Positions 2,583-54,828 of a stretch of 64,000 nt of DNA are shown here, piece by piece (position 1 is the stretch's first letter; each line of letters starts with the position of its first letter). Source of the DNA: Massilia sp. PAMC28688 (GTDB taxonomy: Bacteria > Pseudomonadota > Gammaproteobacteria > Burkholderiales > Burkholderiaceae_D); contig NZ_CP080378.1 in the NCBI RefSeq assembly GCF_019443445.1, positions 4,216,001 through 4,280,000 on the forward strand, written 5' to 3'. The notes under the pieces were generated by a model. That model ran no database searches. It saw nothing but the letters and a program-made list of their open reading frames with translations, and had not been told where the DNA came from. Made by a program: the position numbers and the translations under genes.

Positions 2583-2600
2583 TATGGAAGCGTTTCCATA
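2583..2600. promoter_or_regulatory. LacI-family operator, receptor 1 proximal site
   Basis: TATGGAAGCGTTTCCATA matches its own reverse complement at 16 of 18 positions. The core GGAA-GCGT-TTCC is shared with sites ahead of the other locus genes. Confidence 0.75.
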
Positions 2601-2613
2601 ATGTATTTTCGCA

Positions 2614-2642
2614 AAGATACACCAAAAGATCAGGACTGCCAA
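2614..2642 (-). promoter_or_regulatory. Putative promoter of the first TonB receptor
   Basis: On the minus strand a TTGGCA box (2642-2637) is separated by 17 bases from TATCTT (2619-2614). The LacI-type palindrome at 2583-2600 begins 13 bases after the -10 box, where it would cover the transcription start. Confidence 0.5.
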
Positions 2643-2650
2643 CAAGAGTT

Positions 2651-2664
2651 TGGAAACGTTCCCA
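2651..2664. promoter_or_regulatory. LacI-family operator, receptor 1 distal site
   Basis: TGGAAACGTTCCCA is self-complementary at 12 of 14 positions. It lies just upstream of the -35 box, 66 bases centre to centre from the proximal site, so looping between two operators is possible. Confidence 0.6.
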
Positions 2665-2757
2665 CAGAGTGCAAAAATGCAACAACGGATGCTGCATGTG
2701 CACAATGCGGTCTGAGGAAGAAAAGCGCCGGAGGACCGCGCAGGCAGGGGCGGCAGG

Positions 2758-2790
2758 GAGAAAAAAAGAATAGCCCGCGAGAGCGGGCTA
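2758..2790 (-). terminator. Intrinsic terminator of the KGG protein gene
   Basis: Perfect 8-bp stem TAGCCCGC/GCGGGCTA with a GAGA loop (2771-2790). Read on the minus strand it is followed by a T-rich tract (2770-2758). It lies downstream of the gene ending at 2858. Confidence 0.8.
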
Positions 2791-2857
2791 TCCGTACTGC
2801 ACGGTGCTGGTGAGGCACCGCTTACAGGGCCGGCATCACCCGGCCCAGGAGGAAAGT

Positions 2858-3274
2858 CTACCTGGAGCGCGATCCCGAACCGCCGGCGTTGTTACCGCCG
2901 GAAGACTGATTGCCGCCGGACTTGGCGCCGGCACCGGCGCCGGAATCGCTTTGCTTGCTGCCGGCGCCGGCCGAACCGCGCGAACCGCTATTGGCGCCGC
3001 TCTGCTGATTGCCGCCGCTGTGGCTGCGTTTGCCGGCTTCGCGTGCCTCTTCCGGGGTGAACTCGTGGGCATTGCCGGATGCGTGCGCTGCGCGCCCGCC
3101 TTCGGCAGCAATTTCGCGCTGACGCTGCGGATCCATGGAGGCGAAACCGCGAGTGGACGTATTGCCGCTCTGGTTGTCGCCGCCCTGGTTGCCACCGCGG
3201 TTACCGCTGTTGCCGCCGGACTGGTTATTGCCCTTGTTACCGCCTTGATTGTTGCCGCCCTGATTGTTAGCCAT
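2858..3274 (-). CDS. KGG-repeat stress-induced protein
   Basis: A 138-residue hydrophilic protein. It starts at 3274, where AGGAG sits seven bases before ATG. The N-terminal half is a low-complexity Gly/Asn/Gln tract; the middle holds the general-stress KGG-type motif (FASMDPQRQREIAAEGG, then HEFTPEEAREAGKRSHSGG), related to GsiB/YciG proteins, and the C-terminus is Gly/Ser/Asn rich. Such proteins are intrinsically disordered and induced by stress; a molecular role is not established. It has its own terminator and is not part of the sugar locus. Confidence 0.85.
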   Translation of the reverse strand: MANNQGGNNQGGNKGNNQSGGNSGNRGGNQGGDNQSGNTSTRGFASMDPQRQREIAAEGGRAAHASGNAHEFTPEEAREAGKRSHSGGNQQSGANSGSRGSAGAGSKQSDSGAGAGAKSGGNQSSGGNNAGGSGSRSR

Positions 3275-3498
3275 AATCGTTCTCCTATTGATATTTTTGT
3301 TGATACTCACGCGAACATGCGGTGTCGGAACCGACACGTGGCGATTCCGAGTGTCTCCATAGTAGGCGAGCGCCAGAGCCAGTTGAGTCGGCCGGAAAGC
3401 AGTACTCATGTAGGAATAGATAACGCGTTTGTCCGCGCTTCAACCTACAACATTTAGGGCCAGCAATGATTGAAAAAAGAAAGTGTTTCAGGTAGATA

Positions 3499-4452
3499 TT
3501 ACGCATGCAAGGGGCGCGCCCGGACTGCGTGGATCCGCACTGACCAGGTCACGCCGATGGCGAGCAAGGCCATTGCGGCAAGTTCCAGCATGCGCGGCCA
3601 TCGCTGCGCGTGGATGAAGCCATACAACAGGGCAAACATGGTTTCGAACAGGATCAGCTGGCCGGACAGGGTAACCGGAACGCGGCGGCTGGCAATGTTC
3701 CACAAATGGTTACCAATCACCGAGGCGCCAAGCGCGAGCAGGGTGTTGGTGACCCAGAATAGGGTCCAGTCGCGGCCGCTCGCGGCGCCCGCTGCACCGG
3801 TAATATCCCCATGCCAGATGGCCATGCCTGCCAGGCTCATGACGAGGGCAATGGCGCCGCTGGCCAGGCCGTACAGCGCCGACCATTCGGCACTGGTGAA
3901 ATGCGGCGTACGTTTGAGGTAGCGCGCATTGTCGACCGTGTACCAGCTCCAGCACAGCAAGGCCCCGGTCGCGCATGCGATCCCGAGCACGGTACGGGCC
4001 GGGTCTGCGGCGGCGCCGCGCGCGGCATGCAACACGTCCACATTAATGCAGGCAATGCCGGCGCCCACTACCAGCAGGGGGCCGGCCAGGGCGCGCACGT
4101 GCACCGCACCCTGGTCATTGCGGCCAAGCAGTGTAACGGCGATGGGCAGCACGCCGATGATCAGCGAAGTGGCACTGACGCCGGCCAGCGTGACGCCCAT
4201 GGCCAGCAGGATGTAGTACACGATATTGCCGGCCATGGCGTGACGCACCAGTGCGGCGTAGTCGCTGCGCCCGAGGCGCGCGGCCAGCTTGCCCAGGCGC
4301 GGCAGCATCAGGCCCAGCGCGATGGCGCCATACGCAATGTAGCGTCCCAGCGCCAGTTCCACCGGCGAGAAGGCAGGAAGCATCCTGGGCACGATGAACA
4401 CCATGCCCCACATCGCCCCGGCCAGCAGGCCGCACAGCACACCCATCCTCAT
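3499..4452 (-). CDS. EamA/DMT-family membrane transporter
   Basis: A 317-residue integral membrane protein with about ten hydrophobic helices in two EamA-like repeats, as in drug/metabolite exporters of the RhaT/YdcZ superfamily. ATG at 4452 is preceded by AGGGGACAAG. It is transcribed divergently from the second TonB receptor across a 246-bp gap holding that receptor's promoter and operator. This raises the possibility, by position only, that it moves a product of the locus across the inner membrane. Substrate unknown. Confidence 0.8.
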   Translation of the reverse strand: MRMGVLCGLLAGAMWGMVFIVPRMLPAFSPVELALGRYIAYGAIALGLMLPRLGKLAARLGRSDYAALVRHAMAGNIVYYILLAMGVTLAGVSATSLIIGVLPIAVTLLGRNDQGAVHVRALAGPLLVVGAGIACINVDVLHAARGAAADPARTVLGIACATGALLCWSWYTVDNARYLKRTPHFTSAEWSALYGLASGAIALVMSLAGMAIWHGDITGAAGAASGRDWTLFWVTNTLLALGASVIGNHLWNIASRRVPVTLSGQLILFETMFALLYGFIHAQRWPRMLELAAMALLAIGVTWSVRIHAVRARPLHA

Positions 4453-4533
4453 AACTTGTCCCCTTGTCGCACCGGCGCCAGTGTCGCATGTTGTTAAGCG
4501 AAATCTTTTTATTAAATCATTGAAAATGTGTCG

Positions 4534-4563
4534 TTGACACTGAAAAACAATGAGTGATATATT
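4534..4563 (+). promoter_or_regulatory. Putative sigma-70 promoter of the second TonB receptor
   Basis: TTGACA (4534-4539), an 18-base spacer and TATATT (4558-4563). The palindromic operator begins ten bases downstream. The same layout and spacer are seen ahead of the binding-protein gene at 9297. Confidence 0.7.
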
Positions 4564-4572
4564 TTGTCATCA

Positions 4573-4590
4573 ATTGGGAGCGTTTCCAAT
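4573..4590. promoter_or_regulatory. LacI-family operator, receptor 2
   Basis: ATTGGGAGCGTTTCCAAT, self-complementary at 14 of 18 positions, located over or just after the expected transcription start. Confidence 0.7.
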
Positions 4591-4698
4591 CATTGGGAAG
4601 AACGCACTGATTGGGCCTGCCAGGTGGGATAATCCTGTGCCGGTGCGCGGCAGCAAGAACAATAACGACAAAAACAAACGACAAAATTGGGAGACGCG

Positions 4699-7356
4699 AT
4701 GTTGCAACTGAATACCAAGCGCACATTCATCAGCCTGGCCGTGGCCAGCGCCTGCAGTCTGGGCAGCACGTCTGCCCATGCGCAGACGGCAAGCCCGCCG
4801 GCACCGGGCGATGCCGCCAGCGGCGAAGAATACGTTCCCGAGATCAAGGTCACGGCGACCCGCTATTCAACCTCGCTGCTCAAGACCCCGATCGCGGTGA
4901 CGGCCTTCAGCCAGGACAGCCTGTCACGCATGGGCGTGACCAGCGCCAAGGACCTGGCCAATGAAATCCCGAACGTCAATATCCAGCAGACGGGCGACTC
5001 GGCGGTGCAGATCACCATTCGCGGCATCACCTCGTCCAACACCACCGAAATCGGCGACCCCGCGGTCGGCTTCCATATCGACGGCCTGTACTCGCCGCGG
5101 CCCCAGGGCGCGCAGGCACTGATGTTCGACGTGGAGCAGGTGGAAGTGCTGCGCGGCCCGCAAGGCACCTTGTTTGGACGGAACTCGACGGGCGGCAGTG
5201 TCAATGTCATCTCTTCCAAGCCCGACTTCAACGGCAATTACGGCAAGGCGGAAATCGACCTTGGCAACTACAACAAGAAGCAGATCAACGTCATCCAGAA
5301 TATCGCGGTCAATGACAAGCTGGCCGTGCGCGCCGCCTTTACGCGCGTGGTACGCGATGGCTATGCCAACCAGATGCAGGACATGCGCGAGGCGAACGAC
5401 CCGGCGCGCGGCTGGATCCCGGACGGCATTCCCGACGTGGACCAGCGCTGGAATACGCCGGTCAACAAGCAGGACTTCTACACCAACCAGGACTCGTATG
5501 CGGCCCGCCTGGCCGCGCGCGTGCGCGCCACGCCCGACCTGACCCTGAACGCGGCCTTTGAACTGTTCCAGGACAGCAGCGCCGGCGGCACCAGCTTTGC
5601 CGACTGCGAGCAGCGCGCCGGCACCCGCTACGCCTGCACCGGCGGCGAATTCGACCTCTTGATCAATGTGCCGGGCAAGACCGACATGTCGATCAAATCG
5701 CTGCGCGGCGGCGCCAGCTGGAACGTCAACCAGCATACCAGCCTTGACTACAATTTCATGGTGGCAGACCAGCGCCGCTTTCAGATCTACGACGCCGACA
5801 AGGGGCTGACCGCCGCGCTGCCATTCCAGATCAGCGCCGACTATCCGAACCGTCCGGATGCGAACAACTGGGGTACCTGGCCGCTCGATGACCGCTACCA
5901 GGCCACCTGGGATTCCAAGTACATCTCCACCGTGCAGGAACTGCAGCTCAAGCAGCAGTTCAATACCTTGCAGTACGTGGCCGGCCTGTTCTGGATGCAC
6001 GAAAAGAACCAGATCAATTACGAGGTGGTGGATTTTTTCCGCAAGCCGCATGCACTGGCTTCGGGCGCCTTCTACGCCCAGCCGAACCGCCAGGTCGATG
6101 CCAAGGCGGTCTTCGCCCAGGCCGACTGGCGCTTTATGCCTACCTGGGTTGCCACAGCGGGGGCGCGCTACAGCATTGACAGCAAGACCGACAAGGATGG
6201 TTTGAACCTGGGCGGCTGGTGGGGCCAGAAGGAGTTCTACCGCGGCACCTACGACCCCGGCACGCCGAATACGCCGGGCTACCGCATCCCGCAAGGCTAC
6301 GACCTGGGCCCGCGCGTGGGCGGCAGCTTCGAGGCCTACGAACTGTATGGCAAGCCATCACCCAACGACCATTCGGAAGAATGGAAAAAGGTCACGTGGC
6401 GCCTTGGCCTGCAAAAGCAGGTCACGGAAAACCAGATGGCCTACACGGCACTGTCCACCGGCTACAAGGCAGGCGGATTTGGCGACCGGGTCGACAGCTG
6501 CGGGGGCCACACCTGCCTCGATGGCAAGCCGGGCGTGGAGACCTTCCTCCCCTACAAGCCGGAACTGGTAACGAATCTGGAGTTCGGCTACAAGGGCAAG
6601 TTCATGGATAACCGACTGAGTCTGTCGGCAGTGGCGTTTGCCATGCGTTACCAGGACCAGCAGCTGACCGGTACCTATTTCGTCACCAAGTACCTGCCGC
6701 CGGATGGCCAGCCTTGCGCTGCCGATCAGCCCAAGTGCGACGTGTATGAGACCTGGCGCACGATCAACGTGGGGAACACCCGCATTTCGGGCCTGGAGGT
6801 GGAGTGGGACTACAAGCCGTGGAAGGGCGCCAGGATTGGCGGCGCTTTCTCCAACCTGAATACCTCGATCCGCGACTACGGGGCCTACAGCGACGATTAC
6901 CTGTGCGAGGAGCGTATCGAATTCGATCAGGAGCGCTGCCCGGCGCCGTTCGCAGGTCCCGGTCCCGACAGCGGCAAGCGCCTGTACGACGTGACCGGCA
7001 ACCGCCTGCCGAACGCGCCCAAGTACACCTTCATGCTGCATGGCTCGCAGGCGTTCAACCTGGCCAACGGCATGAAGATCACGCCGTACGTGAAGGTGAA
7101 CTGGCGCGACAAGGCGTACTTCGACGTGCGCAATGACGAATTCCGCCACATTGGCCGCTTCCAGAAGGCGTATGCGGTGGGCGACGCCTCGATCCGGCTC
7201 GATGCCAGCGAAGGCAACTGGCATGCGGAAGCCTATGTACGTAATATCAGCGACAAGCGCGCGAAAAACTGGGGTGGCAGCGGCCTGGGCGCCCAGATGA
7301 TCGCCAGCTACATCGAGCCGCGCATGTTCGGCCTGCGCGTGGGCGTCAACTACTAA
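4699..7356 (+). CDS. TonB-dependent receptor
   Basis: An 885-residue outer-membrane receptor. ATG 4699 follows GGGAGA. The signal peptide is cleaved near residue 28 (AHA), the TonB-box-like segment IKVTA is at 49-53, and the plug carries 'VEVLRGPQGTLFGRNSTGGSVNVISSKP', classic for the family. The barrel ends in an aromatic residue (GLRVGVNY). It is followed by a possible attenuating terminator and then the first halogenase, a pairing known from Xanthomonas, Brevundimonas and Caulobacter sugar loci. It probably imports the inducing glycoside or oligosaccharide. It is only distantly similar to the receptor at the left edge. Confidence 0.95.
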   Translation: MLQLNTKRTFISLAVASACSLGSTSAHAQTASPPAPGDAASGEEYVPEIKVTATRYSTSLLKTPIAVTAFSQDSLSRMGVTSAKDLANEIPNVNIQQTGDSAVQITIRGITSSNTTEIGDPAVGFHIDGLYSPRPQGAQALMFDVEQVEVLRGPQGTLFGRNSTGGSVNVISSKPDFNGNYGKAEIDLGNYNKKQINVIQNIAVNDKLAVRAAFTRVVRDGYANQMQDMREANDPARGWIPDGIPDVDQRWNTPVNKQDFYTNQDSYAARLAARVRATPDLTLNAAFELFQDSSAGGTSFADCEQRAGTRYACTGGEFDLLINVPGKTDMSIKSLRGGASWNVNQHTSLDYNFMVADQRRFQIYDADKGLTAALPFQISADYPNRPDANNWGTWPLDDRYQATWDSKYISTVQELQLKQQFNTLQYVAGLFWMHEKNQINYEVVDFFRKPHALASGAFYAQPNRQVDAKAVFAQADWRFMPTWVATAGARYSIDSKTDKDGLNLGGWWGQKEFYRGTYDPGTPNTPGYRIPQGYDLGPRVGGSFEAYELYGKPSPNDHSEEWKKVTWRLGLQKQVTENQMAYTALSTGYKAGGFGDRVDSCGGHTCLDGKPGVETFLPYKPELVTNLEFGYKGKFMDNRLSLSAVAFAMRYQDQQLTGTYFVTKYLPPDGQPCAADQPKCDVYETWRTINVGNTRISGLEVEWDYKPWKGARIGGAFSNLNTSIRDYGAYSDDYLCEERIEFDQERCPAPFAGPGPDSGKRLYDVTGNRLPNAPKYTFMLHGSQAFNLANGMKITPYVKVNWRDKAYFDVRNDEFRHIGRFQKAYAVGDASIRLDASEGNWHAEAYVRNISDKRAKNWGGSGLGAQMIASYIEPRMFGLRVGVNY

Positions 7357-7391
7357 GCTTATCTGCCTGTTCGCGGCCTGCATGGCGCGCT

Positions 7392-7436
7392 GGCCGATGA
7401 GGTCTTGCCTGGCAGCGGACCCCATCGGCCTTTTTT
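7392..7436 (+). terminator. Possible terminator or attenuator after receptor 2
   Basis: GGCCGATG (7392-7399) pairs with CATCGGCC (7423-7430) around a 23-base loop, followed by six T residues. The next gene starts 23 bases later with no obvious promoter of its own, so partial read-through would set halogenase expression below that of the receptor. Confidence 0.6.
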
Positions 7437-7458
7437 GCATGGACTGCGAGGGGAGTCA

Positions 7459-8979
7459 ATGAAGGACAAGCACATTCGCCAGGTCGTGATCGTGGGCGGC
7501 GGCACCGCCGGCTGGATGACGGCCGCCGCACTGGCGGCGCTGCTGCCGGGGCTCTACAGCTACCGGCTGATCGAATCGGATGCCATCTCCACCATTGGCG
7601 TGGGCGAGGCCACCATTCCCAGCATCCGCAACTTCAATCTGCACCTGGGGATTGACGAAAACGACTTCCTGCGCGCCACGCAAGGCACTTTCAAGCTGGG
7701 AATCGAATTCGTCAACTGGGGCAAGCTGGGCCACAACTATATCCACGGCTTCGGCTCGGTGGGGCGCGACCAGCCTACCGCCAACTTCTTCCATTACTGG
7801 CTCAAGATGCAGCAGATGGGCCATGCCACCAGCCTGGAACCGTATGCCATCAACACCGTGGCCGCGCGCCTGGGGAAGTTTAGCCGGGGCCGTCCCGACC
7901 TGCCCAATTCGCCGCTGGCCGACATGTCGTATGCCTTCCATTTTGACGCCGGGCTGTACGCGCGCTACCTGCGCAGCTACAGCGAGGCCCGCGGCGTGCG
8001 CCGCACGGAAGGGCGCATTGTCGGCACGGCGTTGCGCGCCAGCGACGGCTTCATCGAGGCCGTGGTCATGGAAAACGGTGAGCGCATCGCGGGCGACTTT
8101 TTCATTGACTGTTCCGGCATGGCGGGCCTGCTGATCGAGCAGGCGCTGCACACGGGCTACGAGGACTGGAGTCATTGGCTGCCGTGCGACCGCGCCATTG
8201 CTGTGCCGTGCGAGTCGCATGGCCCGATGCCCGCGCTCACCCGCGCGACTGCGCATGCCGCAGGCTGGCAGTGGCGCATTCCGCTGCAGCACCGCACCGG
8301 CAACGGTCACGTGTTTTCCAGCCGCTTCATGCAGGCCGGCGCCGCCGAGGAGATCCTCATGGCCAACCTCGATGGCAAGCCGTTGGCCGCACCGCGCCTG
8401 CTTACCTTCACCACCGGCAAACGCAGGAAGTTCTGGAACCGGAACTGCGTGGCCATCGGCCTGGCCGGTGGCTTCATGGAGCCGCTCGAGTCAACCAGCA
8501 TCCACCTGGTCAAGACGGCGCTCATGCGCCTGATCAGCTTTTTCCCCGACCGCGCCTTTGAGCAGGCCGATATCGACACCTTCAATCGCCTGTGCGACAA
8601 AGAGTACGAGCAGATCCGCGACTTCCTGATCTGCCACTACAAGGTCAGTGGGCGCGACGATTCCGATTTCTGGCGCTATGTGCGCGACATGGCCGTGCCG
8701 GAGACGCTGCAGCGCAAGCTCGACCTGTTCGCCAGCCGCGGGCGCATCGTGCGCGAGAACGAGGAGCTGTTCCCGGAAGACAGCTGGCTGCAGGTGATGC
8801 ACGGGCAGGGCATGCGCCCGCGTTCATACAACCCGGTGGTGGACCAGCGCGCGCCCGAAGATATCGCCGACTTCCTCAACAGCACCGCGGCGGTGATCCG
8901 CAAATGCGTCGATGCCATGCCGGGCCACGAAGCGTTCATTGCCGCCCACTGCCGCGCGGGCGTCAAGCAGGCAGCCTAG
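7459..8979 (+). CDS. Flavin-dependent (tryptophan-type) halogenase, copy 1
   Basis: A 506-residue PrnA/BrvH-type halogenase. The start at 7459 has GAGGGGAG upstream and places the FAD motif GGGTAG at 13-18. The catalytic lysine aligns as K79 (FKLGIEFVNW, the same number as in PrnA), the family motif WxWxIP is at 270-275, and the EPLESTS segment puts E344 where PrnA has E346. The residue after T346 is Ser, where PrnA has a halide-contacting Gly. There is no signal peptide, so it acts in the cytoplasm with reduced FAD. No flavin reductase is nearby. Substrate unknown; an indole or aryl aglycone is a guess. The stop codon lies inside the left end of a MITE-like element. Confidence 0.93.
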   Translation: MKDKHIRQVVIVGGGTAGWMTAAALAALLPGLYSYRLIESDAISTIGVGEATIPSIRNFNLHLGIDENDFLRATQGTFKLGIEFVNWGKLGHNYIHGFGSVGRDQPTANFFHYWLKMQQMGHATSLEPYAINTVAARLGKFSRGRPDLPNSPLADMSYAFHFDAGLYARYLRSYSEARGVRRTEGRIVGTALRASDGFIEAVVMENGERIAGDFFIDCSGMAGLLIEQALHTGYEDWSHWLPCDRAIAVPCESHGPMPALTRATAHAAGWQWRIPLQHRTGNGHVFSSRFMQAGAAEEILMANLDGKPLAAPRLLTFTTGKRRKFWNRNCVAIGLAGGFMEPLESTSIHLVKTALMRLISFFPDRAFEQADIDTFNRLCDKEYEQIRDFLICHYKVSGRDDSDFWRYVRDMAVPETLQRKLDLFASRGRIVRENEELFPEDSWLQVMHGQGMRPRSYNPVVDQRAPEDIADFLNSTAAVIRKCVDAMPGHEAFIAAHCRAGVKQAA

Positions 8980-9138
8980 TGTCCTGAATTGCAGATTCGT
9001 TGAATAAATATGACGAGAATCGCCCCGATCCTGCGTCGCAAATGCGCGCAAGGCCTCGGCCTTGCTGTGCTTTGCTCCTTGACTCGGGCCGATTTCGTCA
9101 CATTTATTATTCAACGAACTAGCAATTCAGGACACTAG
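8976..9138. mobile_element. MITE-like 163-bp inverted-repeat element
   Basis: The ends read CTAGTGTCCTGAATTGC and, inverted, GCAATTCAGGACACTAG. Inside, the two arms remain recognisably complementary (TTCGTTGAATAAATATGACGA against its partner at about 9095-9118). The exact centre (9048-9065) is a perfect hairpin GCAAGGCC-TC-GGCCTTGC. CTAG at both ends may be target duplication or part of the repeat. It contains no coding sequence. The TAG stop of the upstream halogenase is the TAG of the left CTAG. Confidence 0.8.
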
Positions 9139-9201
9139 CGCCGCGCTGTCGAACGGGTGGGGCACGCCGGCAGAGGCGAATGCGCATGCGGCAGCTGCGC
9201 G

Positions 9202-9231
9202 TTGACACCCAAATTCATTGGATGATATAGT
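9202..9231 (+). promoter_or_regulatory. Putative sigma-70 promoter of the binding-protein operon
   Basis: TTGACA (9202-9207), 18-base spacer, TATAGT (9226-9231). The operator starts 12 bases downstream, copying the arrangement ahead of receptor 2. Confidence 0.75.
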
Positions 9232-9242
9232 CAAACCCATCA

Positions 9243-9260
9243 TTTGGAAAGCCTTCCAAA
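9243..9260. promoter_or_regulatory. LacI-family operator, binding-protein operon
   Basis: TTTGGAAAGCCTTCCAAA, self-complementary at 16 of 18 positions, covering the probable transcription start. Confidence 0.75.
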
Positions 9261-9296
9261 ATACGCCGGCACAGACCTGCAATCTCAGGAGACGCG

Positions 9297-10535
9297 ATGT
9301 ACACAGTAGCAAAGTTGGCGGGAGCGGCGCTGCTGGCCGCCGCCTGCACGGCAGCCCACGCCGGCAATCCCCGGCCCGAAGTGATCCATTGGTGGACGTC
9401 GAGCAGCGAAGCGGCGGCCGTGCGCACGATTGCGGACGCTTATCGCAAGCAGGGCGGCGTGTGGAGCGATTCGGCCATTGCCGGCGCCGACCAGGCGCGC
9501 GCGGTGGCCATCAACCGGATCGTCGGCGGAAACCCGCCCATGGCGGCCCAGTTCAACACCACCAAGCAGTTCACCGACCTGGTGGAACAGGGCATGCTCA
9601 ATAATGTGGACGACGTGGCCGCGCGCGAAGGCTGGGACAAGTTCCTGCCCGCGCCGATCCTCAATGTCATTCGCGTCAATGGCCATTACTATGCGGTGCC
9701 GGTCAACATCCACATGCAGGCCTGGATGTGGTATTCCAAGGCCGCGTTCCAGAAAGCGGGCATCAGCAAGGAGCCGGCCAGCGTGGACGAACTGTTCGCC
9801 GCGCTCGACAAGCTCAAGGCGGCAAAGATCATCCCGCTGGCCCATGGCGGCCAGGCGTGGCAGGAAAACATCCTGTTCCTGTCGATGCTGGCGCATGTGG
9901 GCGGGACCGACCTGTATCTGAAAGTGCTGCGCGAGCGTGACCCGGCAGCGATCAATTCGCCCGCCTTCCGCAAGGTGCTCACCACCTTCAAGCGCCTGCA
10001 ATCGTATGTCGATCCGGGTGCACCGGGGCGCAACTGGAACGATGCCACGGCGCTCGTCATCAGCGGCAAGGCAGGCATGCAGATCATGGGCGACTGGGCC
10101 AAGGGAGAATTTGCGGCCGCCCGCATGACGGCGGGGAAGGAATACGGCTGCATCGCGGGCTTCAATGCCAGCTCGCCCTACCTGATCCAGGGTGACGCCT
10201 TTGTGTTTCCCAAGACCGGCAACGCGCAGCAGATCAAGTACCAGAAGCTGCTGGCCAGTACCATCGTGGCGCCAGCCACGCAGGTGTCATTCAACAAGCT
10301 CAAAGGATCGATTCCGATCCGGGGCGACGTTGACGCGAGCAGCATGGACCATTGCGCCAGGATCGGCATGCAGATCATGAAGGACCGCACGCGTCACGTG
10401 GGCATTGGCGAGGTGTATCTGACGCCGGACCAGAACGGCGCCATGCAGGATGTGCTCACCGCCTTCTGGAACACGCGCATGCCGGTCGAAAAAGCCCAGA
10501 AAGGAATCGCCGCCGCGCTCAGGAACGAGCAGTGA
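9297..10535 (+). CDS. Periplasmic sugar-binding protein (ABC family 1), no permease nearby
   Basis: A 412-residue extracellular solute-binding protein of the family that serves oligosaccharide ABC importers. The signal peptide ends at AHA (residue 22). The mature part begins 'EVIHWWTSSSEAAAVRTIADAY' and contains 'GKAGMQIMGDWAKGEF', both typical of family 1. The leader GGAGACGCG before ATG is identical to that of receptor 2. No permease or ATPase gene occurs in the window, so either it uses a remote transporter or it acts as a periplasmic chaperone or sensor for the receptor's ligand. It overlaps nothing; the second halogenase starts seven bases after its stop. Confidence 0.92.
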   Translation: MYTVAKLAGAALLAAACTAAHAGNPRPEVIHWWTSSSEAAAVRTIADAYRKQGGVWSDSAIAGADQARAVAINRIVGGNPPMAAQFNTTKQFTDLVEQGMLNNVDDVAAREGWDKFLPAPILNVIRVNGHYYAVPVNIHMQAWMWYSKAAFQKAGISKEPASVDELFAALDKLKAAKIIPLAHGGQAWQENILFLSMLAHVGGTDLYLKVLRERDPAAINSPAFRKVLTTFKRLQSYVDPGAPGRNWNDATALVISGKAGMQIMGDWAKGEFAAARMTAGKEYGCIAGFNASSPYLIQGDAFVFPKTGNAQQIKYQKLLASTIVAPATQVSFNKLKGSIPIRGDVDASSMDHCARIGMQIMKDRTRHVGIGEVYLTPDQNGAMQDVLTAFWNTRMPVEKAQKGIAAALRNEQ

Positions 10536-10542
10536 GGGCGCC

Positions 10543-12051
10543 GTGAACGAGCCGATCGGCGACATTGTCATTGTCGGCGGCGGCACCGCGGGCTGGATGA
10601 CGGCGGCGGCGCTGTCGCGCTTGCTGCCGGCGGGCCACCGGATTCGCCTGGTCGAATCGGACCAGATTTCCACCATCGGCGTGGGCGAGGCGACCATTCC
10701 CAGCATCCGCGCCTTCAATCACATGCTGGGGCTGGACGAAGACACGTTCATGCGCAACACCCAGGCCACATTCAAGCTCGGTATCGAGTTTGTGAACTGG
10801 GGCCGCGAAGGCGACTCCTACATCCACGGCTTCGGCCAGATTGGCCGCGACCAGGCCGTGGCCAGGTTCTACCAGTACTGGCTCAAGATGTACCAGGCGG
10901 GCGAGGCCGACGAGCTGGGCGCGTTTTCCATCAACACCCTGGCGCCGCGCCACGACAAGTTCATGCGCCCGCCCACAGACATGCCCAATTCCCCGCTGGC
11001 CGACATCGCCTACGCATTTCATTTCGACGCCGGCCTGTACGCGCGCTACCTGCGCGGCATCAGCGAAGAGCAGGGCGTGGTGCGGGTGGAAGGGCGCATT
11101 GTGGGCACCCGCCTGCGCCAGGGCGACGGCTTCATTGAAGCGGTGGTCATGGAACACGGCGAGCACATTGCGGGCGACCTGTTCATCGACTGTTCCGGCC
11201 TGGCCGGCCTGCTCATTGAACAGGCGCTGCATACCGGCTTTGAAGACTGGCGCCACTGGCTGCCGGCCGACAGTGCCATTGCCGTGCCCTGCGCCGGCAG
11301 AGCGGCCCTGGCACCCTACACGCGCGCCACTGCGCGCAAGAGCGGCTGGCAGTGGCGCATTCCCTTGCAGCACCGCACCGGCAACGGCCATGTCTTTTCC
11401 AGCCAGTTCATGAGTGCCGACGAAGCCCGGTCGATCCTGATGGCCAGCCTGGACGGGGAGGCGCTGGCCGAGCCGCGCCTGATCCGCTTTACCACCGGCA
11501 AGCGCAAAAAGGCATGGAACCGCAACTGCGTCGCCATTGGCCTGGCGGGCGGCTTCGTGGAGCCGCTCGAATCGACCAGCATCCACATGGTGCAGACGGC
11601 GATCATGCGCCTGGTGAGCTGCTTTCCGGACCGTGGTTTTGCCCAGGCCGATATTGACCTGTTCAACGCCCAGAGCGACGAAGAGTATGAGCGCATCCGC
11701 GACTTTCTCATCATGCATTACCACCTCAACGCGCGCGCCGGGCAGCCGTTGTGGGACTACTGCCGCAGCATGGAGGTGCCCGAGACGGTGCGCGAGCGCA
11801 TTGCCCTGTACCAGGGCCATGGCCGCATTTTTCGCAAGGGCGATGAGCTGTTTGCCGATGCCAGCTGGCTGCAGGTGATGCACGGGCAGGGCTTGCGCGC
11901 CAGTGGCTACCACCCGCTGGTGGACCAGCGCAGCAAGGAAGATATCGCCGCCTTTCTGGAGGCAGTGCGCAAGACGATCGCGGCCTGCGTGGCGGCCATG
12001 CCGGGCCACGCCGAATACGTTGGCGCGATGTGCCGCGCGCCGCTGCGCTGA
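10543..12051 (+). CDS. Flavin-dependent (tryptophan-type) halogenase, copy 2
   Basis: A 502-residue paralogue of the halogenase at 7459, with long identical blocks along its length. GTG at 10543 is chosen because GAGGG overlaps the previous stop and because it aligns with the start of copy 1. FAD motif GGGTAG at 12-17, catalytic lysine K78, WxWxIP at 269-274, and EPLESTS with E343, T345 and S346. It is translated with the binding protein as one operon. All catalytic residues are kept in both copies, so the two probably differ in substrate or regiochemistry. No signal peptide. Confidence 0.93.
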   Translation: MNEPIGDIVIVGGGTAGWMTAAALSRLLPAGHRIRLVESDQISTIGVGEATIPSIRAFNHMLGLDEDTFMRNTQATFKLGIEFVNWGREGDSYIHGFGQIGRDQAVARFYQYWLKMYQAGEADELGAFSINTLAPRHDKFMRPPTDMPNSPLADIAYAFHFDAGLYARYLRGISEEQGVVRVEGRIVGTRLRQGDGFIEAVVMEHGEHIAGDLFIDCSGLAGLLIEQALHTGFEDWRHWLPADSAIAVPCAGRAALAPYTRATARKSGWQWRIPLQHRTGNGHVFSSQFMSADEARSILMASLDGEALAEPRLIRFTTGKRKKAWNRNCVAIGLAGGFVEPLESTSIHMVQTAIMRLVSCFPDRGFAQADIDLFNAQSDEEYERIRDFLIMHYHLNARAGQPLWDYCRSMEVPETVRERIALYQGHGRIFRKGDELFADASWLQVMHGQGLRASGYHPLVDQRSKEDIAAFLEAVRKTIAACVAAMPGHAEYVGAMCRAPLR

Positions 12052-12129
12052 AGGCACAGCCGGCGCTTGTCGCGCTGCGCTCCTTTGCAGTATCCTGTCT
12101 CCTTTGATGACGGACGAAAGATCAACCAG

Positions 12130-13158
12130 GTGGCAACCCTAAAAGATGTAGCGCAGCTGGCCGGCGTGGGACTTGGGACAGCCTCGCGCGTCGTGAGCGG
12201 CAAGGGCGCGGTCTCGCCCAAGACGCTTGAGCGCGTGCGCAAGGCAATCGCTGAACTGGACTTCCAGCCCTCGCATGCCGCGCGCTCGCTCATGTCGGGC
12301 AATTCGCAAATGGTCGGGGTCTATATTCCCTTCCTGTCCGGTACCTTCTATACCCCCATCCTGCAGCTCATTTATGCCGAATTGCGCGCTGCCGGCCTGA
12401 ACATGGTGGTGGGCTTCGGCACCGGTGGCCTGGACCAGCGCAAGCAGGCGGTGGAAGGCATTGAATTTTTGCACCAGCGCGGCTGCGACGGGGTGCTGGT
12501 CATGAGTACGGCCCTGCTGCAGGAAGATATCGCGGCCCTGGGCCCGCGCGCTGCCCGCATGGTGCTGCTCAATCACCGCCTCGATGGCATGGCAGAGCGC
12601 TGCTTCACGATCGACCATACGCTCGGTGGCCGGATGGCCGCGCGCACGCTGATCGACAACAAGCACCGCAAGATCGCCGTGATTGCCGGCCCGGACGAAG
12701 CGGCCGACAACCTGGAACGGGTGCAGGGCTTCATGGACGAACTGGCCAGCGCCGGCATTGATCCCGCCAAGGTATGGTGCGTGAAGAGCGATTTTTCGCC
12801 AGACGGCGGCTGGCAGTCGGCCGCGCAGCTGCTGGCGTCCGGCCACGATTTCACGGCCGTGTTTTGCGCCAATGACGAGATGGCGGTCGGGGCGCTGTCG
12901 TACTTCCAGCAGGCCGGGATCAATGTGCCGGGCGACGTGTCGGTGCTCGGCTACGACGACACCCACACGGCCGAATTCACGGCGCCGCGCCTGAGCTCCG
13001 TGCGCATGCCCTGGACCGAGATGACCTTGAATGGGCTGAACTGCCTGCTCAATAGTTGCTACGGCATGGATCGCCCATGCAATCATGACACGGTGGTCAG
13101 CGTGACCCAGCGTGCGTCGGTGGCAAAAGCCAAGGCCAGGTCCGCGCGCGCCAGATAA
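12130..13158 (+). CDS. LacI-family transcriptional repressor
   Basis: A 342-residue regulator. GTG at 12130 is chosen because it gives the standard LacI N-terminus (VATLKDVAQLAGV); the ribosome site is weak. Helix-turn-helix at about 1-25, hinge helix 'SHAARSLMSG' near 45-56, then a periplasmic-binding-like ligand domain. The palindromes ahead of both receptors, the binding protein, the glucosidase and the antiporter fit the GGAANCGNTTCC consensus of this family. It is the only LacI gene in the window, so it is the likely repressor of the locus, probably released by a sugar derived from the imported glycoside. Confidence 0.93.
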   Translation: MATLKDVAQLAGVGLGTASRVVSGKGAVSPKTLERVRKAIAELDFQPSHAARSLMSGNSQMVGVYIPFLSGTFYTPILQLIYAELRAAGLNMVVGFGTGGLDQRKQAVEGIEFLHQRGCDGVLVMSTALLQEDIAALGPRAARMVLLNHRLDGMAERCFTIDHTLGGRMAARTLIDNKHRKIAVIAGPDEAADNLERVQGFMDELASAGIDPAKVWCVKSDFSPDGGWQSAAQLLASGHDFTAVFCANDEMAVGALSYFQQAGINVPGDVSVLGYDDTHTAEFTAPRLSSVRMPWTEMTLNGLNCLLNSCYGMDRPCNHDTVVSVTQRASVAKAKARSARAR

Positions 13159-13171
13159 GTTCCCACCCCTC

Positions 13172-13209
13172 AAAAAACCGCCCTCGGCCATGCATGGGCG
13201 GTTTTTTTT
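13172..13209. terminator. Terminator after the LacI gene
   Basis: CCGCCC (13178-13183) pairs with GGGCGG (13196-13201). An A-run precedes and eight T residues follow, so it could work in both directions; the T-run serves the plus-strand LacI gene. Confidence 0.85.
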
Positions 13210-13218
13210 GTGGTAAAG

Positions 13219-13232
13219 TGGAAGCGATTCCA
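13219..13232. promoter_or_regulatory. LacI-family operator, beta-glucosidase
   Basis: TGGAAGCGATTCCA, self-complementary at 12 of 14 positions, 39 bases before the glucosidase start. No clear -35/-10 pair was found here. Confidence 0.7.
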
Positions 13233-13271
13233 ATTTAGTGGCAGGCAACTTCCACCCTTGATGACGCGCCC

Positions 13272-14639
13272 ATGACCAATTACCCATCCGCTCTTCGCAC
13301 TCCCTTGTCCCGCGCCGACTTTGGCCCCGGCTTCCAGTGGGGCTGTTCCACGTCGTCATTTCAGATCGAAGGAGGCGCGCAGGCAGGCGGACGGGTGCCG
13401 TCGATCTGGGATACCTTTTGCGAGCAGCCCGGCGTGATCCGGGACGGCTCCGATGGCAAGGTCGCGTGCGACCATTATCACCGCTGGCCGGAGGACATGG
13501 ACCTGGGCAAGGCAATGGGCTTGAACGCCTACCGCTTTTCCATTTCCTGGCCGCGCATAATGAGCGCGCCGGGGGCGGCGCCCAACGAGGAGGGCCTGCA
13601 GTTCTATTCGGACTTGATTGACGGGGTGCTCGCACGCGGGCTGGTGCCGTGGGTGACCTTGTACCACTGGGACTTGCCGCAATACCTGCAGGATGCGGGC
13701 GGCTGGAGCAGCCGCGACACCGTGGCTGCCTTTGTCCACTACGCCGATGTGGTGACGCGCCGCCTGGGCAGCCGCGTCAAGCACTGGATCACGCATAACG
13801 AGCCATGGTGCACGGCGATTCACGGCAACTTCGACGGCATGCATGCCCCGGGCCTCAAGAGCCTGCCCACGGCGCTGCAGGTGTGCCACCATGTGCTGCT
13901 CTCGCACGGGCTGGCGGTACCGGTGATCCGCGCCAACGTGCCCGGGGCCAGGGTCGGTATTGCCCTGAGCCTGCATCCGGTCATGCCCGCCAGCGACACG
14001 CCGCAGGACCTGGAAGCAGTGGCGCGCCATGACGCCTTTCGCAACCGCTGGTTTCTCGACCCCTTGTATGGCCGCGGTTTTCCGGCCGACACGCTGGCAT
14101 TGATGGGCGACGCTGCCCCCGTCATGCAGCCGGGCGACGTGGAAGCGATCGCCGTGCCGACCGACTTTTTGGGCGTGAACTATTATTTTCCCGAAGTGGT
14201 GCGGCACGATCCGGCCGGTGGCTTTCTGGCCACCCGTGTGATCCATCCGGAAGGACGCGAGCGCACCGACTTTGGCTGGGAAGTGGCGCCGCAGGGCATG
14301 ACCGACCTGCTGCTGCGCATTGCGCGCGACTACCAGCCGGGCGAAATGTATGTGACGGAGAATGGCTCGTCGTATGATGATGTGGTGCAGGCCGATGGCA
14401 GCATCGAGGACCACGCGCGCCGGCATTACCTGGTGCGCCATCTGCAGGCCGTGCGCACGGCGCAGGAACAGGGGGTGCCGGTCAAGGGGTACTTCGCCTG
14501 GAGCCTGCTCGACAACTTCGAATGGTCGGAAGGCTACCTGCGCCGCTTTGGCCTGGCCTACGTGGATTTTGCCACCCAGCGGCGCACCCTGAAGCTGAGC
14601 GGCCAGTGGTACCGCGACTTCCTGCACGGCGCCGCCTGA
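13272..14639 (+). CDS. GH1 beta-glucosidase
   Basis: A 455-residue family 1 glycoside hydrolase, full length for the family. The acid/base glutamate is E177 in THNEPW and the nucleophile is E363 in VTENGSS; the N-terminus has the usual 'FQWGCSTSSFQIEG'. There is no signal peptide, so it cleaves beta-glucosides in the cytoplasm after import. It has its own operator and lies downstream of the LacI gene, making it the catabolic arm of the regulon. Natural substrate (cello-oligosaccharide or aryl glucoside) cannot be decided. Confidence 0.95.
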   Translation: MTNYPSALRTPLSRADFGPGFQWGCSTSSFQIEGGAQAGGRVPSIWDTFCEQPGVIRDGSDGKVACDHYHRWPEDMDLGKAMGLNAYRFSISWPRIMSAPGAAPNEEGLQFYSDLIDGVLARGLVPWVTLYHWDLPQYLQDAGGWSSRDTVAAFVHYADVVTRRLGSRVKHWITHNEPWCTAIHGNFDGMHAPGLKSLPTALQVCHHVLLSHGLAVPVIRANVPGARVGIALSLHPVMPASDTPQDLEAVARHDAFRNRWFLDPLYGRGFPADTLALMGDAAPVMQPGDVEAIAVPTDFLGVNYYFPEVVRHDPAGGFLATRVIHPEGRERTDFGWEVAPQGMTDLLLRIARDYQPGEMYVTENGSSYDDVVQADGSIEDHARRHYLVRHLQAVRTAQEQGVPVKGYFAWSLLDNFEWSEGYLRRFGLAYVDFATQRRTLKLSGQWYRDFLHGAA

Positions 14640-14649
14640 CGGGCGCTGG

Positions 14650-15081
14650 CTACACGGCGTGCCACACCTGGGCCAGGCCGGCCAGGTGCACGGCGCCAAG
14701 GCCGATGCAGATGAGGGAACTCCACACCAGGAAGGGCGTGGCCTGGTGCCGGGCGAACAGCAGCAGCGGCACCACGGCCAGGCCGCGCAGCAGGTAGACG
14801 GCGGTGATCCCGACCAGCGCCGCCTTGAGCTGCGGCAGGGGCGCAATCACGCCCGCCCCGGCCAGGGCATACGCCGACCAGGTGGCCAGGACCAGTGCAA
14901 TGAACGCCGTCACCACGGCCGGGTAGACCCGGCCTGCGGCATCGGCCCTGGCCATGCTGTCGCCGGCGCCGAAAAAGCGGTACCAGGGCGCGCCGCCGAC
15001 GATGATCCCCACATGGAGCAGGGCGGCGATCGCGCTCAGGATGGCCGCAACCACCAGTGGCAGGTTATAGTGCGTGGGCAT
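14650..15081 (-). CDS. Small four-helix membrane protein, function unknown
   Basis: A 143-residue protein with four predicted membrane helices (about 7-29, 55-78, 84-105, 113-135). The start at 15081 (MPTHYNLP) is preferred because an upstream extension would be Ala/Arg rich and uncharacteristic; no strong ribosome site is visible. It is convergent with the glucosidase (10-bp gap) and lies 92 bp beyond the stop of the antiporter on the same strand. No family was recognised with confidence. Confidence 0.6.
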   Translation of the reverse strand: MPTHYNLPLVVAAILSAIAALLHVGIIVGGAPWYRFFGAGDSMARADAAGRVYPAVVTAFIALVLATWSAYALAGAGVIAPLPQLKAALVGITAVYLLRGLAVVPLLLFARHQATPFLVWSSLICIGLGAVHLAGLAQVWHAV

Positions 15082-15173
15082 GATGGCAGTGTCCGGTCGG
15101 GTTGCACGATGTGCATGCGGCCATGCCCATGCAGCTCCCACATGCTAGCAAAAAGTCAAGCATCGCGCTGGCG

Positions 15174-16382
15174 CTATGTCTTCCTGAAAATGAGTTCCTG
15201 CATGCGCTGGAGCTTGGGATAGACCAGCGGCACGGTCAGCATGGTGCTGCCGATGGCCATCAGCAGCAGGGCGGTGAAGGTGTCGCTGGTAATGATCTCT
15301 TTGTCGAGCAAAATATTGCAAAAGATGATCATGATGAGGGCCTTGGTCTGCAACAGCCAGCCGATGATCGATGCCTCGCCCTTTTGCCACCCGAGGATGC
15401 GGCCAGCCATGTGGGCGGCCGCCAGTTTGCCGGCGACCGAGGCGACCAGCAGGACGGCGGCGGCCAGGAACACGGCGCTGCCGCCCACGGACCAGTTGGT
15501 GCGCAGACCGGTACTGAGGAAGAACACGGGCATGATGGTCAGCAGCACGTGGTGGCGCAGCAAGTCCATCTTTTTCTGGTCGAACCAGTGAGCATCCATG
15601 ACGGCACCGGCCAGGAAGGCGCCGACCATGTAGTGCAGGCCGGCCCAGTCGGCGGCCAGGCCGCAGATGGCAAGCCAGATCAGTGCCGCGAACCAGCGGT
15701 CCGGTTCCTGCATCCTGACCATCAGCTTTCTGAATGCCCAGGCGGCCACGATGAACACGAGCAGGAAGGCGCCCTGGCGTCCCACGCGCGTCCAGTCCAG
15801 CAAGATCAGCGCCAGTACGCCCCAGATGGCAATATCGTCCAGGCTTGCGTAGCGCAGGATGCGCTGGCCAATGGGCTGGCGCAGCACGTCTAGCTTTTCC
15901 ATCAGCAAAATCAGGATGGGCAGTGCGGTCACGGCGCAGGCCATGCCGATGCCCAGGATGAATTGCCAGGTCTGGGCCTGGGGGCCGATCCACCCGCTGT
16001 AGAGCAACATGCCCATGGCGGCCAGGCAGCCGCTGGCCAGCGGCACGCCCAGGGCCAGCGAGGAAGTGACCAGGGTTTCGCGGCGGTGTTCCCAGGCCGA
16101 CACCAGATCGAGTTCGATGCCTGCGATCATGACAAAGATCATCACTGCCCACCAGGCAATGCCATTGAGGGTCTGGATGACGGCGGGATTGAACACGAAG
16201 CTGTAATACTCGGGAAAGGCCGCGCCCATGACGCCGGGGCCAAGCAGGATGCCGGTGATGATCTGCACCACCACCAGCGGCGCGTAATAATCGGTGCGGC
16301 CCACGCGCCAGATCAGGTAGGGAACCGTGAAAATGAGCAACATCGCAATGAGGAATATTTCGGTGGTACTCATCGCATGCAT
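15174..16382 (-). CDS. Cation/proton antiporter (CPA2/NhaS-like)
   Basis: A 402-residue membrane protein with roughly 11-13 hydrophobic segments and the paired aspartates of the exchanger fold (SLDDIAIWG). The family swaps Na+ or K+ for H+ across the inner membrane. ATG 16382 has AGGGA six bases upstream; a second ATG three codons in is possible. It carries no C-terminal TrkA-N domain, unlike KefB/KefC. A good LacI-type palindrome lies about 50 bases upstream, tying it to the sugar regulon. Confidence 0.88.
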   Translation of the reverse strand: MHAMSTTEIFLIAMLLIFTVPYLIWRVGRTDYYAPLVVVQIITGILLGPGVMGAAFPEYYSFVFNPAVIQTLNGIAWWAVMIFVMIAGIELDLVSAWEHRRETLVTSSLALGVPLASGCLAAMGMLLYSGWIGPQAQTWQFILGIGMACAVTALPILILLMEKLDVLRQPIGQRILRYASLDDIAIWGVLALILLDWTRVGRQGAFLLVFIVAAWAFRKLMVRMQEPDRWFAALIWLAICGLAADWAGLHYMVGAFLAGAVMDAHWFDQKKMDLLRHHVLLTIMPVFFLSTGLRTNWSVGGSAVFLAAAVLLVASVAGKLAAAHMAGRILGWQKGEASIIGWLLQTKALIMIIFCNILLDKEIITSDTFTALLLMAIGSTMLTVPLVYPKLQRMQELIFRKT

Positions 16383-16432
16383 GGCACATCCCTGAAGTTG
16401 AATCGAGAGATTATAGCCAAATACTCAAGGTC

Positions 16433-16446
16433 TGGAATCGCTTCCT
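16433..16446. promoter_or_regulatory. LacI-family operator ahead of the antiporter
   Basis: TGGAATCGCTTCCT is the reverse complement of the glucosidase operator at 13 of 14 positions. On the minus strand it lies just upstream of a TATAAT box (16415-16410) and would overlap the -35 region. Confidence 0.65.
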
Positions 16447-23076: not shown

Positions 23077-24154
23077 GCACGTGGCTGCGTCCGCACCGCA
23101 ATCAGCATGACATTTTGCATATGGTTGCGGTGAATACGCTACAGGTTGGCTTTGTACCTTGTGCTGTTAGTTGGCTGGGGTACATGCGTATAGCGAAGTT
23201 GGCATCGGTACGCCACTGACAGGAAGTGTGCGGAGACAGGGCATGCAGTCCGCCCTTGCTTTCCAGGCGTTAGGCTTCGGCTCAACGCGCACGAAAACAG
23301 CTCAGCGTCGGCCAGCGGTGTACGGTGACGAGCGTGCAGGTAGACGTCGGAGTGACGAAGGCGACGCCTTGCACTAAACGGATTGAAACAGGGGGGCTGA
23401 CATGGCGAGTGTGTAGGCAGCTGGTCACCTCATGATGTGCGCCGAAGTGTCCGGAGCACCCGACGCCTCGCACCAGACTGCCTGACACCAGACACTCGTC
23501 GATCATGCGTCCAAGCCACACGGACGGGGACCGACGCAAACGCGAAGTCAGCTACGTCATGCTGCTGTGCGCGGGTTTTGCGAGATGAAATGAAGCGGCC
23601 AGCAAGTCCTGCAGGCAGGGCGAGCGCCGTTCGCTTGCCGCGCGTTATCTACTTTCGCCAGATTAACAGGCCAGCTTCGATGTCCTAGAGATCCACCGCT
23701 CCCTGGGCTCGTTTTTGCTCGTTTTTTCCCCCGGTCAATTACTGATGAACCGTTCCCGCCGCGCCTTGGGATCGACGTGAATCAAACGGGCGGCGGTTCG
23801 GTTCTTTGGTGCATGCCGTTCTGCGGCCAAAATGGCGGCTGGCAGGTCGGGTCAACGCTTGCCATTCGTGCGCTTCTTTCTACTCATCACTGTCCCAGGC
23901 GGGGTGTGTTAAGGATTTACCGCTCCTTGGTCTCGTTTATGCTCGTGCCGTTACTTGTACTGAGCCAATTTCTCCGTGGCCAATTTCACATACCCTGGCA
24001 GCGATGTTGCCTGGCGCTGCCATACACTCTTAGCCTGAATCCGCTTTCGCTTCTGGCTCTCCTGATTCGATCCGAAGCAGGGGAACCGGTTGGCGAACTT
24101 CCTGTCAAACCAGTGAGGTAACAACGCGACGCCCCATGACGCGAGGAGACGAGC
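23077..24154. other. Gene-poor stretch with diverged direct repeats
   Basis: No reading frame here has a recognisable domain, a good ribosome site and native codon use together. The base composition is lower in GC than the flanks. GATCCACCGCTCCCTGGG at 23690 begins a 33-base segment that recurs at 23914 with 28 of 33 matches. It may be the remains of a mobile or phage-derived segment. Confidence 0.5.
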
Positions 24155-54826: not shown

Positions 54827-54828
54827 GA

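Follow-up and report, generated by a model that had tools for sequence, protein, structure and literature searches.

Palindromes in a Massilia sugar locus as probable operators of a LacI-family repressor group with a likely beta-1,3-glucan regulon

Which regulator reads the palindromes of a sugar locus in Massilia sp. PAMC28688, and which genes do they bring under common control? The locus lies in the stretch of 64,000 nucleotides analyzed here (the window; positions 4,216,001 to 4,280,000 of the 5.46-Mb contig that makes up the genome). It comprises, from left to right, the TonB-dependent receptor (TBDT) gene TBDT1 (minus strand), an EamA transporter gene (minus strand), TBDT2, halogenase 1, the solute-binding protein (SBP) of an ATP-binding cassette (ABC) transporter, halogenase 2, the regulator LacI1, a GH1 beta-glucosidase, and a CPA2 antiporter (minus strand). 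An earlier note on this DNA had listed six palindromes in the locus and assigned them to one LacI regulon, and all six are found at the listed places or within 2 bases of them. We consider it probable that these palindromes are operators of a group of LacI-family repressors that would control the uptake and breakdown of beta-1,3-glucan saccharides in this Massilia-group bacterium. The conservation of the sites, their placement at promoters, and the presence or absence of the regulator speak strongly for common control by a LacI-type repressor. However, the regulon appears neither to have a single regulator nor to be confined to the sugar locus.

The sites were scored as 14-mers against the consensus TGGAANCGNTTCCA and carry zero to two mismatches (Table 1). 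The GGAA-NCGN-TTCC core ascribed to all of them is present in five, each with a central CG, whereas the site at 9245 reads TGGAA-AGCC-TTCCA and has a GC center. The motif GGAANCGNTTCC with at most one mismatch matches the window six times, compared with 1.89 ± 1.30 times in dinucleotide shuffles, none of which (0/100) reached six. These matches are five of the listed sites and a palindrome at 60366; the latter was rejected as an operator, as its outer T/A is absent and the matrix does not score it as a hit. Training on other genomes alone (155 sites, 127 of them distinct, from 74 loci) gave a weight matrix that ranks exactly the six listed sites at the top of the window, where they are the sole hits scoring 9 or higher. 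In 20 Markov-model control windows, the top score was 13.6, and 6 windows contained a hit of at least 9. Five sites therefore stand well above chance, whereas 16433 (9.7) is at chance level and lacks significance when judged on its sequence only, and equal standing of the six is not supported.

As is typical of LacI-type operators, the sites precede sugar genes at promoter positions. Promoters had been said to end 10 to 13 bases before three of the palindromes. The predicted -10 boxes end 11 bases before the 14-mer at 4575 and 13 bases before that at 9245, in agreement with this range, but 15 bases before that at 2585, which is close to it. Both promoter boxes are present in 9/9 aligned TBDT2 loci and 11/11 aligned SBP loci. 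At GH1, no -35 box was found, and the TG-G-TAAAGT ahead of the gene is what we take to be a motif of the extended -10 type. A TATAAT box is present at 16410-16415, and the antiporter site at 16433 would overlie the position of its -35 element. A strong -35/-10 pair of the sigma-70 type was located upstream of 83 of 131 distinct sites, and in 81 of these 83 the -10 box ends 9 to 15 bases before the operator. At shifted control positions (scored as blank near a locus end), strong pairs were found in 4 of 262, none with the 9- to 15-base spacing. Sites with such a promoter are distributed unevenly among the genes (SBP, 39/41; TBDT1 type, 24/37; TBDT2, 5/5; first permease, 3/3; GH3, 10/26; GH1, 2/19). 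Where a promoter can be placed, the expected start point is a few bases ahead of the operator.

Conservation in relatives was assessed in 74 loci that surround homologues of LacI and come mostly from Burkholderiales. When no more than one mismatch was allowed, these loci yielded 160 sites, 62 of them exact. The same loci were scanned with 29 permuted palindromes, for which the median was 1 and the maximum 10 (highest number of exact matches among the six controls shown, 1). Sites occur ahead of leading genes, namely, TBDT1-type receptors (25/26), SBP (37/57), GH3 (23/57), and GH1 (14/68). They are rare at inner genes (halogenase, 0/23; MalK, 0/39; second permease, 0/36; major facilitator superfamily [MFS] transporter, 0/36; glucokinase, 0/5; LacI, 2/75), and the first permease, which is the second gene in many clusters, has a site upstream in 1 of 35 cases. 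GH16, halogenase 2, and TBDT2 are outside this per-gene count. In aligned promoters, conservation of the operator is 0.98 to 1.00 (SBP, 11 loci; TBDT2, 9; GH1, 11), compared with 0.58 to 0.80 at -60 to -41, 0.77 to 0.87 over the promoter part, and 0.59 to 0.76 downstream. The operator is invariant in all aligned TBDT2 (9/9) and GH1 (11/11) loci, and among the 11 aligned SBP loci, 8 have AGCC as the operator center and 3 have ACCC. The TBDT1 operator pair recurs at 65 to 66 bp in genus genomes G007 and G013. A 66-bp pair as a general TBDT feature was rejected: 17 of the 25 TBDT1-type genes with sites in the loci examined have a single site, and the other 8 have other spacings.

The earlier note correctly counted one LacI gene in the window; the genome holds five LacI-domain genes, among them a close paralogue, LacI2. 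Both LacI1 and LacI2 carry PF00356 and PF13377 above cut-off, which places them in the LacI/GalR family. They are 64% identical over 332 residues and have the recognition-helix stretch GVGLGTASRVVSGKG in common. LacI2 is located at 1.315 Mb in a probable operon with an operator of the same type, as is LacI1 in its own, and the assumption of a single regulator is therefore not supported. In the window, the halogenase 1 frame opens 48 bases past TBDT2 and halogenase 2 opens 7 bases past SBP; this gene spacing suggests the operons TBDT2-halogenase 1 and SBP-halogenase 2-LacI1. As LacI1 would be the last gene of the operator-bearing SBP operon, it is probably autoregulated. Identical 14-mers occur across the two loci, the distal TBDT1 operator being the same as the ABC operator and the GH1 operator the same as the GH3 operator. 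Given the identical recognition helix and these identical 14-mers, both LacI proteins would be expected to read all sites.

Named relatives of LacI1 come from Massilia, Duganella, Undibacterium, and Rugamonas, followed by Roseateles and Pelomonas. In a tree of 77 rows, built by a quick method and with several open forks, LacI1 groups with three Massilia sequences (support, 100) and LacI2 groups with one of Massilia sp. H-1 (99). As Massilia sp. H-1 has a member in both groups, the two lines appear to be older than the split of these species. Among plasmid records, 4287 match LacI, none of them at 60% identity or more. In Massilia glaciei (L066), two LacI genes of this clade are situated approximately 6.5 kb apart and flank one GH1-GH3-glucokinase-MFS cluster, possibly an earlier stage of the two-locus arrangement. 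In two loci of Massilia sp. H-1 (L098 and L099), several locus genes match piecewise in shifted frames, which resembles sequencing errors or decayed genes.

The number of sites follows the presence of these regulators. A LacI1/LacI2 homologue (E ≤ 1e-90) was detected in 15 of 17 genus genomes, with two copies in 12 and one copy in 3. The 15 LacI-bearing genomes contain 57 exact sites (control, 6), compared with 1 (control, 2) in the two genomes without, G005 and G009. An even draw of 60 family genomes comprises 6 with LacI, in which 18 exact sites were counted (control, 4), and 54 without, in which 27 were counted (control, 21); G000, G009, and G011 belong to both sets. This contrast in site number supports the view that the motif is read by this LacI clade.

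The exact palindrome is not scattered over unrelated promoters, a possibility that the earlier note had raised. Exact copies of the 14-mer number 4 in the genome, compared with 0 for the reversed control, and precede TBDT1, GH1, a GH3 gene (site at 1314149), and a GH16-CBM56 gene (7434). The GH3 gene is followed by a glucokinase gene and then an MFS gene. A one-mismatch site at 1318084 precedes the permease-permease-MalK-LacI2 set of an ABC transporter. Another, at 244998 (L011 1501-1514; 18.4 bits), precedes a gene whose product has ricin-type beta-trefoil lectin repeats and also matches GH16 weakly (20.8 bits, below the cut-off of 22). The regulon, which had been placed in the sugar locus alone, is accordingly predicted to span at least three further chromosomal places. 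All 12 GH16-CBM56 homologues in the genus, including that of this genome, have an exact site approximately 130 to 360 bp before the first aligned residue. At 14 exact-site loci of relatives, the neighboring protein was scanned in 8 and proved to be GH16 in 6, a TonB receptor in 1, and DUF1349 in 1. Of the remaining six, four (L202, L206, L207, and L209) are genes already counted (GH1, GH16, antiporter), and in L203 (G009) and L204 the exact site falls within a called reading frame.

The gene content points to the substrate. In the PDB, the GH16-CBM56 protein finds its matches among solved laminarinases and beta-1,3-glucanases, and the best PDB match of GH3 is 3usz, an exo-1,3/1,4-beta-glucanase (NCBIfam equivalogs were below cut-off). 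Genes for endo- and exo-beta-glucanase-like enzymes (GH16-CBM56 and GH3) are thus found behind the operator, together with the GH1 beta-glucosidase. From these matches, the substrate of the regulon is likely beta-1,3-glucan of the laminarin type; beta-glucans are polysaccharides that occur in algae and fungi.

All parts of a sugar ABC importer are present in the genome, i.e., the SBP, two permeases (the second recognized by its reading frame and cluster homologues), and a MalK-type ATPase. Such parts are usually, though not by strict definition, encoded side by side; here, however, the SBP gene is 2.9 Mb (contig coordinates) from the genes for the permeases and ATPase. The window SBP, whose best PDB matches (5xpj and 5dvf) are binding proteins of ABC sugar transporters, is the only homologue in the genome at E ≤ 1e-70, and the only other genomic match of the first permease is 26% identical. 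Therefore, the SBP most likely serves the permeases 2.9 Mb away. A single cluster of SBP, both permeases, MalK, LacI, GH3, and often MFS is seen in Undibacterium, several Massilia, and others. Seven genus genomes (G002-G004, G006, G008, G010, and G016) have a cluster with its own SBP and a second locus with SBP-LacI1-GH1. In the permease clusters of this genome, G012, G013, and G015, no SBP match was found ahead of the first permease. A common operator would keep the parts of such a split transporter in step.

In the proposed mechanism, a repressor dimer would, in the absence of inducer, occupy the DNA a few bases past the start point and block transcription. At GH1 it would lie over the -10 box, at the antiporter over the -35 box, and at TBDT1 on both sides of the promoter. 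A glucan-derived sugar would bind the C-terminal domain of the repressor, which would then let go. On release, the receptors, the two halogenases, SBP, the glucosidases, the unlinked laminarinase-like gene, the ABC permeases, and the glucokinase operon would be switched on jointly. LacI1 and LacI2 would share the operators, each from a probable operon that carries one.

Several observations weigh against the proposed regulon or its details. By the rule used here, 48 of the 131 sites have no strong promoter, including 17 of the 19 at GH1. The training sites of the matrix were chosen by consensus, and the set includes three near relatives (L033, L099, and L104) with orthologous promoters. A genome scan allowing one mismatch is at chance overall (14 places compared with 20 for the reversed control) and was rejected as sole evidence, as was the looser TGGDANSSNTHCCA (14 compared with 18). 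Nine of the 14 places precede glucan or sugar genes (five in the window, 7434, 244998, 1314149, and 1318084). Three (12524, 2908008, and 3812794) are deep within long reading frames and were taken as chance, and two (566300, scoring 10.4, and 4805233) are no more than 45 bases from a called start. The matrix hit of 19.1 at 4805233 (L031 7233), near the start of a gene for a TerC-family membrane protein, is unexplained, as is one of 16.0 at 1325821 (L021 5821) within a called reading frame. Since the SBP finds its PDB matches among sugar and glucose binding proteins, the cargo of the transporter may be glucose and not glucan oligomers. Finally, in 9 of 14 antiporter orthologues, the 76 bp upstream contain no site of one mismatch or fewer. 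Together with the matrix score of 16433 and the Markov windows with hits of 9 or more, this would fit a chance resemblance at the antiporter, leaving five real operators. Such an outcome, which is compatible with the proposed regulon for the other five sites, seems rather unlikely to us. The remaining 5 orthologues, including that of this genome, do have a site; it is exact at 47 and 49 bp in G015 and G013, nearly the distance of the one-mismatch site here (51 bp), although these antiporters are more than 400 kb from their LacI1, and has one mismatch at 56 and 76 bp in G008 and G001. In G001, moreover, the antiporter is back to back with the SBP operator. The antiporter promoter alignment holds just these 5 loci, and conservation in it is circular and was not used. 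It is possible that the antiporter is a lineage-variable member of the regulon.

The main rival to shared control is a division of labor between the paralogues, in which LacI1 alone would act on the window locus and LacI2 alone on the ABC/GH3 locus, with their own inducers and two look-alike regulons. Most differences between the two proteins (64% identity) are outside the DNA-binding part, and of the 12 genus genomes that carry two LacI genes, 11 have them on different contigs (distance not proven) or more than 2 Mb apart, the twelfth being G007, with a distance of 7 kb. The special GC or CC center of the SBP operator in the LacI1 locus also agrees with separate regulons. However, the identity of the recognition helices and the 14-mers common to both loci argue for shared operators, and with the SBP and its likely permeases in different loci, common control would be needed; we therefore regard a division of labor as improbable. 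A further alternative is that a different regulator, either another LacI or a member of a different palindrome-binding family, binds the sites and the neighboring LacI genes are bystanders. The genome does encode three further LacI-domain proteins, and other regulators, such as a more distant LacI, may read the motif in genomes that lack this clade. In genus genome G005, where no match to LacI reaches E ≤ 1e-90, a TBDT1-like receptor gene (41 to 45% identity) is preceded at 94 bp by a one-mismatch site. Three exact sites apiece are present in three of the 54 family genomes that lack this LacI, and the family set contains just 6 LacI-bearing genomes. However, the three other LacI proteins have different recognition helices (SPATVSRFLNG, SKATVSRALSD, and SKTTVSRALNG), no matrix hit above 9.2 is present in the 20-kb stretches around their genes, and site number tracks the presence of the LacI1/LacI2 clade. 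A bystander role for LacI1 and LacI2 is consequently very unlikely, and a repressor pair acting on shared operators is the reading we retain.

Two flavin-dependent halogenases are encoded in the locus. Both halogenases 1 and 2 match PF04820 over their full length and belong to the tryptophan type, and the best PDB matches of both are 9luq, 6frl (BrvH), and 6y1w (Xcc4156). Halogenase 2 is positioned between SBP and LacI1 in this genome, in Massilia sp. H-1, and in CF038; no match at that place was found in eight other genus loci (L146 and L148-L154). The native substrates of BrvH and Xcc4156 are reported as unknown in the available portion of a study on these enzymes (PMC7336383). BrvH and Xcc4156 are thus among the top three PDB matches of both window halogenases, which differ in that they lie in probable operons with the operator of the beta-glucan regulon. 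We tentatively suggest, as an idea that may well not hold, that these BrvH/Xcc4156-like halogenases are dedicated parts of beta-glucan feeding. They would be switched on only with glucan, via a paralogous repressor pair on shared operators that would also unite an ABC transporter split by 2.9 Mb.

Table 1. Palindromic sites, predicted promoters, and genes of the locus, in window coordinates
Feature	Positions	Strand	Remarks
TBDT1 operator, promoter-proximal	2585..2598	-	0 mismatches; matrix 24.2 bits
TBDT1 second operator, just upstream of -35 box, 66 bp from first	2651..2664	-	1 mismatch; matrix 23.2 bits
Operator of probable TBDT2-halogenase 1 operon	4575..4588	+	1 mismatch; matrix 25.7 bits
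SBP operon operator, GC center	9245..9258	+	2 mismatches; matrix 19.2 bits
GH1 operator	13219..13232	+	0 mismatches; matrix 28.1 bits
Candidate antiporter operator, weak	16433..16446	-	1 mismatch; matrix 9.7
Predicted TBDT1 promoter	2614..2642	-	-35 TTGGCA 2637-2642, 17-bp spacer, -10 TATCTT 2614-2619; 9/12 hexamer bases
Predicted TBDT2 promoter	4534..4563	+	-35 TTGACA 4534-4539, 18-bp spacer, -10 TATATT 4558-4563; 11/12 hexamer bases
Predicted SBP operon promoter	9202..9231	+	-35 TTGACA 9202-9207, 18-bp spacer, -10 TATAGT 9226-9231; 11/12 hexamer bases
Possible extended -10 of GH1	13211..13219	+	Final base would overlap operator
TBDT1, TonB-dependent receptor, Xanthomonas/Caulobacter type	2..2536 (reaches window edge)	-	Pfam Plug and barrel; NCBIfam TIGR01782 455 bits (cut-off 310)
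TBDT2, TonB-dependent receptor	4699..7356	+	Pfam
Halogenase 1, flavin-dependent (tryptophan type)	7405..8979	+	Pfam PF04820 634 bits
SBP, ABC solute-binding protein	9297..10535	+	Pfam; PDB matches
Halogenase 2, flavin-dependent	10543..12051	+	Pfam PF04820 635 bits (scored on longer frame); GTG start assumed
LacI1, LacI-family regulator	12130..13158	+	Pfam LacI and Peripla_BP_3
GH1 beta-glucosidase	13272..14639	+	TIGR03356 599 bits (cut-off 478.5); Pfam
CPA2 (Na/H exchanger-type) antiporter	15174..16382	-	Pfam PF00999

Other parts of the window were also noted. The EamA-family transporter gene (3499-4452) is divergent from TBDT2, with approximately 120 bp between its start and the operator at 4575. 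As the EamA gene of L033 adjoins the SBP operator, EamA may be co-regulated. Reading frames with low third-position GC (0.56 to 0.61) at 23777-25585 are possibly foreign DNA, and the longer of them (24155-25585) gave no Pfam match. An erythromycin esterase family protein (PF05139, 437 bits) is encoded at 53486-54889.

Control of a glucanase cluster by a LacI-family regulator is not without precedent, as GlyR3 of Clostridium thermocellum reportedly has laminaribiose as its inducer. To our knowledge, the GlyR3 system includes no TonB receptors or halogenases. Blanvillain et al. 2007 are said to have described TonB-dependent receptors together with sugar-handling genes under LacI-type control; the set described here differs in being scattered over the chromosome and in including two halogenases and an ABC binding protein. 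GlyR3 governs the celC-glyR3-licA cluster and is autoregulated, and laminaribiose is a frequent word (63 occurrences) in the GlyR3 paper (PMC5483248). The likeness to the present system thus lies in LacI-family control of a glucanase cluster with autoregulation, the kinship of the regulators being compared at the family level.

Sugar regulons of the LacI type that combine such operators with autoregulation and paralogous regulators are well established (Ravcheev et al. 2014, PMC4052901). In that work, operators are even palindromes, mostly with a CG center, more than 75% of sites are 30 to 140 bp before starts, about 20% of operons have more than one site, autoregulation amounts to 72%, and paralogues arose by duplication. 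Like those regulons, the Massilia system has a LacI regulator beside sugar genes, an even and mostly CG-centered palindrome, probable autoregulation, and paralogues. It differs in the conserved GC/CC center of the SBP operator, a minority state in that study (a different central pair in 49/1303 regulators). Ralstonia, Comamonadaceae, Oxalobacter, and glucan do not occur in the main text of PMC4052901 (supplements were outside the search), and a search of a review (PMC10766802) for LacI offered nothing closer. Among the papers listed in literature searches, judged by title and the start of the abstract and covering mostly open-access literature but not RegPrecise, no description of this regulon was found. 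Within the literature searched, the membership of the regulon, its arrangement with two repressors and a split transporter, and the inclusion of two BrvH-like halogenases appear to be new.

Overall, a list of palindromes has become a testable regulon with predicted member operons at several chromosomal places, two candidate repressors, and one likely substrate class. A lone SBP is linked to specific permeases, which provides a case of a transporter that, after the splitting of its operon, is apparently co-regulated through a shared operator. For the halogenases related to BrvH and Xcc4156, beta-glucan is now a concrete candidate induction condition.

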